Below are positions 37,644-39,420 of a DNA stretch of 64,000 nt, piece after piece. The stretch is taken from NCBI GenBank assembly GCA_030429235.1, contig JAUIDB010000006.1, positions 62,001 to 126,000 of the forward strand. The letters are read 5' to 3'. Every line of letters starts with the position of its first letter. The stretch's first letter is position 1. Made by a program: the position numbers and the translations under genes. The notes under the pieces were generated by a model that did no database searches, was not told the DNA's origin, and saw nothing but the letters and a program-made list of their open reading frames with translations. The stretch is from Thermoanaerobaculia bacterium (GTDB lineage: Bacteria > Acidobacteriota > Thermoanaerobaculia > Multivoradales > JAIOJS01).

Positions 37644-37701
37644 GCCCAGATCGGCCGTCCCCGTCAGGGAATCGGCCACTTTGACGCCACCTAGGTGGCC
37701 G

Positions 37702-37735
37702 AAAGAGCGTCCCCGGCCGGGGACGCTCTTTTGCG
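37702..37735 (+). terminator. rho-independent terminator after atpE
   Basis: AAAGAGCGTCCCC and GGGGACGCTCTTT form a perfect 13-base-pair stem around the loop GGCC, with the T-run at its 3' side. This is the clearest terminator in the window. It ends the F0 transcript before any b-subunit gene. Confidence 0.92.
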
Positions 37736-37821
37736 TTTCTTGAGACATCGGAAGTCGAGCGCTGGTCGCAAGGGTGTCCTGCTTGGCGGACGGTGGCGCC
37801 TGATCCGCAACGTCGATCCGT

Positions 37822-37837
37822 TGGCACGGCTTGTGCG
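37822..37837 (+). promoter_or_regulatory. GCAC-N5-GTGC dyad / sigma-54-like element upstream of the ECF sigma gene
   Basis: TGGCACGGCTTGTGCG has the same TGGCACG...TGTGC arrangement as the site at 26130-26145. As a sigma-54 promoter it would leave only about nine bases of leader before ATG 37857, which is short. As a dyad (GCAC, five bases, GTGC) it could be an operator. Such a dyad is expected roughly once or a few times per 64 kb by chance. Confidence 0.35.
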
Positions 37838-37856
37838 TATATCCAAGTCGGAGGGC

Positions 37857-38474
37857 ATGATGACCACGACAGCTCACAGCGATACTCAAGGCGGCAAATG
37901 GGACTTCGAATCGGCGACGATGCCGTTCGTCGACGGTCTCTACAACGCCGCCTATCGGATGAGCCGCAACGCCCAGGACGCCGAAGACTTGGTGCAGGAG
38001 GCCTACCTCAAGGCCTACAAGTACTACGACAAGTTCGAAGAGGGCACCAACCTCAAGGCCTGGCTCTTCAAGATCCTCAAGAACACCTTCATCAATAGCT
38101 ATCGGAAGAAGCAGAACGTTCCTCCCCAGGCCGATTTCGCCGACATCGAAGGAGGCTTCGAGAGCGCGGTCAGTGACCAGGCCCCGGTGGCGATCGAGGA
38201 TCCTGAGACGGAACTCCTGGCGGAGGTGTTGGACGAAGACGTGCAGCGGGCCCTGGACGAACTGTCGGATGACTATCGCATGGCGGTGGTACTGGCCGAT
38301 CTCGAGGGCTTCTCGTACAAGGAGATCGCCGAGATCCTCGACGTCCCCGTGGGGACGGTGATGAGTCGGCTGTATCGTGGTCGTCGCAAACTCGAGAGCA
38401 CGCTCTTGGACTACGCGCGCGAATACGGTTACTTGCGGGAGCGGGAGCCGGTGAAGATGAGAACTCGCGGCTAA
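37857..38474 (+). CDS. sigR: ECF RNA polymerase sigma factor, SigR-like
   Basis: 205 residues from ATG 37857, chosen for GGAGG two bases before and the family N-terminus. Region 2 is strikingly like the thiol-stress sigma factor SigR of Streptomyces: [20 protein letters not shown] and [20 protein letters not shown], then RKKQ. Region 4 is [20 protein letters not shown]. It would direct RNA polymerase to oxidative or disulfide stress promoters when released by its anti-sigma factor, encoded 245 bases downstream. An exact SigR-type promoter candidate lies in the gap between them. Confidence 0.92.
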
Positions 38475-38534: not shown

Positions 38535-38560
38535 GGAATATCCCGACCTGTTCTGCGGTT
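38535..38560 (+). promoter_or_regulatory. candidate SigR-type promoter (GGAAT-N18-GTT)
   Basis: GGAAT (38535-38539), exactly 18 bases, then GTT (38558-38560). This is the published Streptomyces SigR consensus. It lies after the SigR-like gene and before the anti-sigma gene. Transcription would begin about ten bases later and cover the small ORF, the anti-sigma gene and the thioredoxin-like gene, giving negative feedback. Confidence 0.6.
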
Positions 38561-38624
38561 GCAGGATAGGATCGCCCACACGTTCAGTGGCCAGCAAACC
38601 ATCCGGCGTTCCGATTTCGATAGT

Positions 38625-38720
38625 ATGCAGATGGATAGCACTCAGATCGACGCACCCGACTCCGGCGGCGGGGACCTCTCTCCGATCGTCCGCGGAAGGC
38701 GCGAACCAAGGCCCGTGTGA
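38625..38720 (+). CDS. possible 31-residue leader peptide coupled to the anti-sigma gene
   Basis: ATG 38625 opens a 31-codon frame (MQMDSTQIDAPDSGG...) whose TGA shares its last base with the ATG of the anti-sigma gene (TGATG). That geometry suggests translational coupling. No clear Shine-Dalgarno precedes it, and the peptide has no recognisable domain, so it may be fortuitous. Confidence 0.4.
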   Translation: MQMDSTQIDAPDSGGGDLSPIVRGRREPRPV

Positions 38721-38959
38721 TGGACTGCCAACGAACTCGAGAGACGATGTATCTAGCCTCCGACAACCAGTTGGAGGATGATGTTGCGATCCACTTCGAG
38801 CAGCATCTCGAGAAGTGCCCCCACTGCGCAGGCCGCTTTCAGGCGGTCGTGCACGTGTTGACCTTGGTGCGCAAGCGGTGCCGTCGCGTGCCCGCCCCCC
38901 AAGGGTTGATCGTGCGGATCAGGCAACACATCCGCATCGTCGAGGAAGGTAAGTCGTGA
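38720..38959 (+). CDS. rsrA: zinc-binding anti-sigma factor, RsrA-like
   Basis: 79 residues from ATG 38720. The ZAS motif His29-x3-Cys33-x2-Cys36 (HLEKCPHC) with Cys3 as likely fourth ligand mirrors RsrA. The following helix VHVLTLVRKRCRR and the end IVRIRQHIRIVEEGKS also resemble RsrA. In that family thiol oxidation forms a disulfide, expels zinc and frees the sigma factor. An additional Cys54 could take part. It should bind the SigR-like factor encoded upstream. Its stop overlaps the GTG of the thioredoxin-like gene (GTGA). Confidence 0.86.
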   Translation: MDCQRTRETMYLASDNQLEDDVAIHFEQHLEKCPHCAGRFQAVVHVLTLVRKRCRRVPAPQGLIVRIRQHIRIVEEGKS

Positions 38960-39420
38960 AGAACCCTCGCTGGGCCGGAGTTCTCCTCCTGGTCGGCGCT
39001 CTCCTGGGTGTCGAGGCTGGTCCCGCTCAGGAGTCCTGGCGACTGCCGGGCTTGGACGGCGGAGCCCTGACCTCGGCCGACGTGGCCGAGGGCAATACGG
39101 TGGTGGTGGTCTGGGCTGGATGGTCTCCGCGTTGCCGAGATATCGCGCGACAGGTAGCGGAGCTGCGTTCTCAGATCGGATCCAAGGCTCGGCTCGTTAC
39201 GGTCAACTTCCAGGAGAAGGACGAGGAGATCCGGCAGTTCCTGCGCGAGCAGCCGATCGGGTCCCCGGTTTATCTCGATCGGGATGGAGCCTTCTCGCGA
39301 CAGCACCGCGTGACGACGCTGCCCGGCTGGGTGATCTACCGAGCCGGTGAAGTCGTACACCAGGGTAAGCTGCCGAGCGATCCGGGCCCGACGCTCGAGC
39401 GCTCGTTCGGTTCGCGGTAG
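38956..39420 (+). CDS. exported thioredoxin-fold protein with a single active-site cysteine
   Basis: 154 residues from GTG 38956. Signal peptide or anchor WAGVLLLVGALLGVEAGPAQ, then a TlpA/thioredoxin fold: VVVVWAGWSPRC at the active site and the cis-proline loop VTTLPGWVIY (Pro123). The usual WCxxC reads W56-S-P-R-C60, so the attacking first cysteine is Ser. It cannot act as a standard dithiol reductant; binding, monothiol or sensing roles are open. Coupling to the RsrA-like gene places it in a redox-stress unit. Confidence 0.82.
   Translation: MKNPRWAGVLLLVGALLGVEAGPAQESWRLPGLDGGALTSADVAEGNTVVVVWAGWSPRCRDIARQVAELRSQIGSKARLVTVNFQEKDEEIRQFLREQPIGSPVYLDRDGAFSRQHRVTTLPGWVIYRAGEVVHQGKLPSDPGPTLERSFGSR

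Follow-up and report, generated by a model that had tools for sequence, protein, structure and literature searches.

The closest described relatives of the locus reported here are the SigH-RshA pair of Corynebacterium glutamicum and the SigR-RsrA pair of Streptomyces. In C. glutamicum, the promoter PrshA, experimentally shown to be SigH-dependent, transcribes rshA alone and was proposed to provide a fast shut-down of the response; the published SigR/SigH consensus is GGAAT/GTT, with a spacing of 16–19 in variants (PMC3489674). In Streptomyces, i) RsrA holds zinc through Cys11, His37, Cys41 and Cys44 and requires Cys11 for sensing (PMC4960319), ii) rsrA of S. venezuelae has its own promoter inside sigR (PMC5472188, PMC4960319), which is not described as SigR-dependent in the passages considered, and iii) an autoregulatory SigR promoter, p2, upstream of sigR raises sigma and anti-sigma factor jointly (PMC5472188). 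All AS12 anti-sigma factors in a survey of AS12 and ECF12 proteins were from Actinobacteria (PMC7406223).

The present locus, from a member of the Thermoanaerobaculia (Acidobacteriota), shares with that of C. glutamicum a SigH/SigR-type factor, a CHCC anti-sigma factor encoded directly downstream and a putative GGAAT/GTT promoter for the anti-sigma gene; the transcription of sigH from sigma-independent promoters in C. glutamicum is also counted as a shared trait. However, PrshA lies inside sigH, with 2 bases between sigH and rshA, whereas here, in another phylum, the two genes are separated by a 245-base gap. The C. glutamicum SigH targets include mycothiol genes, whereas no MshC (mycothiol pathway) above cut-off was found in this genome, and no thioredoxin-fold gene is described for the rshA transcript, whereas here one overlaps the end of rsrA. 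Common to this locus and that of Streptomyces are the homologous pair, all four zinc/redox residues, the consensus and the targeting of Clp proteases. As in the AS12/ECF12 systems, a cognate ECF12-type sigma factor is paired with an RsrA-type anti-sigma factor, but unlike those of the survey the pair is found in Acidobacteriota (Thermoanaerobaculia), and its sigma factor branches apart from the SigR of Actinobacteria. A limited literature search on SigR and RsrA in Acidobacteria gave no match.

Organization of the locus

The window, i.e. the whole 64,000-nucleotide stretch of DNA analysed, belongs to a genome of 4.85 Mb in 92 contigs. Its closest named relative is L146, a Thermoanaerobaculia MAG (Acidobacteriota), with a sigma factor 82% identical. 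The genes are arranged in the order atpB, atpE, hairpin, sigR-like gene, 245-base gap, rsrA-like gene and thioredoxin-fold gene, with the following features:

37700..37733, + strand, terminator-like hairpin separating atpE from sigR and suggesting a separate sigR promoter (one consensus match, where shuffles give 1.2)
37857..38474, + strand, sigR/sigH-like ECF sigma factor gene, 205 aa (Pfam r2/r4_2; TIGR02947; 5zx2)
38535..38542, + strand, predicted -35 element GGAATATC with the core GGAAT, conserved in 46/47 rsrA-bearing relatives
38558..38560, + strand, predicted -10 element with the core GTT, N18 after GGAAT, a pattern match conserved in relatives
38561..38719, + strand, putative 5' leader of the rsrA transcript, deduced from the promoter position, its length not conserved
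38720..38959, + strand, rsrA-like zinc anti-sigma factor gene, 79 aa (TIGR03988; RsrA 5frf; CHCC ZAS site)
38956..39420, + strand, tlpA/resA-like thioredoxin-fold gene overlapping the rsrA end (Redoxin/AhpC-TSA Pfam; CxxC now SPRC)

The SigR-like protein contains ECF regions 2 and 4 only (Pfam). In the NCBIfam search, TIGR02947 (SigH_actino) was the top of 108 models with an E value of 1.9e-64, but the score of 216.9 bits missed the curated equivalog cut-off of 251.55. The top solved relative is Mycobacterium tuberculosis SigH (5zx2, E 5.6e-51), and the region 4.2 helix is nearly identical to PIGTVMSRLHRGRRQL of that protein. The RsrA-like protein matches TIGR03988 (antisig_RsrA, the mycothiol system anti-sigma-R factor) with an E value of 3.1e-14, again below the curated equivalog cut-off (52.8 bits against 62.5), and has RsrA (5frf) as its structural relative; all 22 relatives match the same model, the best with an E value of 6e-19. 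Residues C3, H29, C33 and C36, forming the CHCC zinc site, are invariant in the 22 aligned relatives and align with Cys11, His37, Cys41 and Cys44 of RsrA, C3 being the equivalent of the trigger cysteine. By these sequence comparisons the pair is homologous to SigR-RsrA, and since both equivalog cut-offs were missed, the names are kept at SigR-like and RsrA-like.

Since the terminator-like hairpin separates atpE from the sigR-like gene, the latter appears to be transcribed from a putative promoter of its own at about 37734–37856. No sigma-70-like promoter was found in a search before sigR in this genome.

The GGAAT-N18-GTT element and its conservation

In the gap between the two genes lies GGAAT-N18-GTT, GGAATATCCCGACCTGTTCTGCGGTT, at 38535–38560 on the + strand, with the consensus and spacing published for SigR/SigH; from its position, the rsrA transcript is predicted to start near 38566–38572. 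The window holds this one exact match, where 0.71 would be expected by chance and at least one occurred in half of the shuffles, and the 4.85-Mb genome holds 84, mostly GGAATC. Taken alone, the single match in the window is not significant, and these figures would permit a functionless coincidence of eight bases; it is the comparison of loci that decides.

We gathered 75 orthologous loci within the order and class. Of the 47 that have an adjacent rsrA, 46 carry GRAAT-N18/19-GTT in the stretch from the sigR 3' end to the rsrA start; shuffled sequences would give 0.26, and the reverse strand gave 1. Such counts come from phylogenetically related loci and are not independent events. The sole exception is L048, an rsrA-bearing locus with overlapping genes and no motif. 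The distance from the promoter to rsrA differs between relatives, and, measured from the sigR stop, the motif lies at offsets of -28 to +184. Because of these shifts, the motif is not merely unchanged ancestral sequence but has been kept while its surroundings changed. When strict GGAAT was counted in the 300 bases after sigR, the spacing peaked at N18 (22 loci) and N19 (9 loci), with no more than 2 loci at each of the other spacings from 10 to 26. This strict count misses loci with the GAAAT variant (L033, L034, L037 and L039, among others) as well as sites that overlap the end of sigR, which were recognised by reading the sequences. Bases outside the searched pattern were also biased, position 6 being A/T in 46/48 sites and position 8 being C in 35/48. 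The spacing peak, together with the conservation at shifting offsets and outside the pattern, leads us to reject a chance match, whose probability is negligible.

Further evidence came from a clade of 20 loci (f3/g3) in which sigR lies between ATP synthase and M23 peptidase genes, and both rsrA and the thioredoxin-fold gene are absent. In these the motif was found after sigR in 0/20, and this joint absence of promoter and anti-sigma gene can be regarded as a natural control. The loci of the clade are L075-L078, L080-L084, L086, L087, L090, L091, L093-L095 and L102-L105.

Two other loci, L068 and L079, were scored as lacking rsrA, yet they keep the promoter and encode an RsrA-like protein behind sigR. 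These proteins have neither the trigger cysteine nor the zinc histidine, and are possibly redox-blind anti-sigma factors.

The element could also be a genuine promoter that is read mainly by another ECF sigma factor, which would place rsrA under cross-pathway control with no direct feedback. GGAA..GTT-type elements are common to several ECF groups, and the genome has 22 sigma factor matches at E<=0.001. We consider this very unlikely, since the site occurs together with the sigR-rsrA pair (46/47) and is absent after sigR in the rsrA-less clade, and since region 4.2 is nearly identical to that of SigH, with the consensus and spacing as published (PMC3489674). The reading that we prefer, with a probability of roughly 0.9, is that 38535–38560 functions as an ECF promoter, recognised by the SigR-like factor encoded just upstream, and drives the rsrA-like gene. 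In the initial annotation, the element had been described as an exact SigR-type promoter between a SigR-like and an RsrA-like gene in a Gram-negative-looking genome. The match was confirmed as the sole exact one in the window, the two gene identities hold by Pfam, TIGR02947, TIGR03988 and the SigH and RsrA structures, the host belongs to the Acidobacteriota, and the promoter reading gains support from the 46 of 47 related loci.

Feedback layout in different lineages

With strict GGAAT, 35 of the 43 same-order rsrA-bearing loci had the motif between sigR and rsrA (0.07 in shuffles), whereas none of the 43 had GGAAT-N18/19-GTT within 450 bases upstream of sigR (0.42 in shuffles); a search of the upstream side with either GTT or GTC at the end and with various spacings gave nothing above background in the order. 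A counterpart of the Streptomyces p2 was likewise not seen there (0/43). The reverse was observed for Actinobacteria loci obtained with the same query, which had the motif upstream of sigR in 42/67 (0.28 in shuffles) and between sigR and rsrA in 0/67. In a sister group of the same class (gp7-type), the motif was present in both places, in 6/7 loci each. The comparison shows that the layout varies with lineage: the promoter serves sigma factor and inhibitor in most Actinobacteria, the inhibitor only in this order, and both sites are occupied in the sister group. The gp7-type loci with the motif upstream of sigR, at about -300, are L132, L151-L153, L155 and L156.

In view of the lack of a consensus promoter before sigR in this order, the circuit is predicted to boost the anti-sigma factor and not the sigma factor, i.e. 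to form a negative-only loop. This claim is weaker than that for the promoter, as it depends on the absence of the consensus upstream of sigR. Positive feedback might be added by a non-consensus SigR-dependent promoter before sigR, as in Streptomyces, where sigRp2 precedes sigR (PMC5472188); the gp7-type relatives with both sites and the failure to find a sigma-70-like promoter before sigR here are in keeping with it. The same search of 450 bases, however, detected the motif in 42/67 Actinobacteria and in 0/43 same-order loci, which makes such an additional loop unlikely. The negative-only layout, the absence of the motif upstream of sigR being the reverse of Actinobacteria, goes beyond the initial annotation; such a wiring is already known from PrshA of C. 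glutamicum (PMC3489674). Judged from promoter position, the layout here is that of C. glutamicum in another phylum, conserved across an order. Such a lineage-specific layout would offer a natural experiment relating promoter position to the shut-off of a stress response.

Genome-wide motif sites and candidate regulon

A genome-wide enrichment of the motif upstream of thioredoxin and other thiol genes had been suggested as a check on the promoter, and was borne out. The genome contains 33 GGAATW sites at N18/19, compared with 15 at N22/23 and 9 at N14/15. Of the right-spaced sites, 12/30 were intergenic and within 300 bases before a downstream start, against 0/24 controls (0/15 and 0/9), the genes being called by a simple codon-bias caller that gives only rough starts and missed rsrA itself. 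The list of downstream genes, which rests on pattern hits and these gene calls, includes Hsp70 (dnaK), ClpX, Hsp90 (htpG), an ErpA-like Fe-S biosynthesis protein, NAD kinase, a DksA/TraR-type protein, an M50 protease and an ArsR-type gene directly before trxA. Motif sites before thioredoxin and protein-quality-control genes, as expected of a SigR regulon, were found for trxA, clpX, htpG, dnaK and the ErpA-like gene, indicating that the motif sites probably mark a proteostasis/thiol regulon. In composition it is similar to the set of C. glutamicum SigH targets for protein quality control and thioredoxin (PMC3489674). The motif may serve as a direct predictor of thiol-stress genes in these mostly uncultured bacteria.

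In relatives, the motif preceded clpX in 18/30 (0.14 expected), the ErpA-like gene in 9/30 (0.19 expected), trxA in 7/30 (0.24 expected), dnaK in 4/30 (0.29 expected) and htpG in 7/15 (0.06 expected). The targets are only partly conserved as targets, e.g. trxA and dnaK, and conserved regulation of dnaK was rejected as weak. Mycothiol dependence was also rejected: MshC matches were sub-threshold only, and similar matches were present in 14/14 control genomes, 1 of them above cut-off.

The sole thioredoxin above the TIGR01068 cut-off in the genome (G000:C85:22555-23357, - strand) lies behind the ArsR-type gene (L128, L331). The site upstream of that gene, GGAATATTCC...GTT, is conserved in a sister genome (L328), and its palindromic GGAATATTCC part could also be an operator.

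Proposed circuit and the thioredoxin-fold gene

From the residues and sites described above we infer the following circuit, which follows the RsrA model and is the best supported. In reduced cells, zinc-bound RsrA (C3/H29/C33/C36) would sequester the sigma factor. Thiol oxidation would lead to a disulfide of C3 with C33 or C36, with loss of zinc and release of the sigma factor. The freed factor would then transcribe clpX, htpG, arsR-trxA, the ErpA-like gene, dnaK, the NAD kinase gene and rsrA, the promoter at 38535–38560 very probably driving the overlapping thioredoxin-fold gene as well. Once thiols are re-reduced, surplus new RsrA would turn the response off, making it self-limiting. This would extend redox-controlled zinc anti-sigma circuits, together with a regulon that can be recognised, beyond the Actinobacteria.

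The thioredoxin-fold gene is kept behind rsrA in most rsrA-bearing relatives and is likely co-transcribed with it. Its active site is mostly W-[A/T/S]-x-W-[S/A]-P-R-[C/S/G], with the first cysteine of CxxC lost, whereas other Acidobacteriota (L137-L145) retain WATWCPPC in the gene at the same place. As a speculative and rather doubtful proposal, the inhibitor-only wiring may be order-wide and the thioredoxin-fold protein, with its N-terminal signal-like stretch and lost CxxC, may have become a working part of the circuit. If so, it could act e.g. as a redox-inactive sensor or adaptor linking the envelope thiol state to the response.

Phylogeny of the sigma factors

The Thermoanaerobaculia sigma factors formed a supported branch of their own beside one that joins other Acidobacteriota, KSB1 and Actinobacteria, in a tree that was midpoint-rooted, had no outgroup ECF and contained long branches. 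The separate position of this branch in such a tree argues against a recent transfer from Actinobacteria, and the circuit has apparently been inherited vertically within the class. Two records were placed at odds with their labels: the sigR of L199, an 'Acidobacteria' MAG contig (ATN4), was beside Ornithinimicrobium, and that of L170, a 'Bifidobacterium breve' MAG contig, was among Acidimicrobiia. Both records are probably mis-binned or mislabelled.
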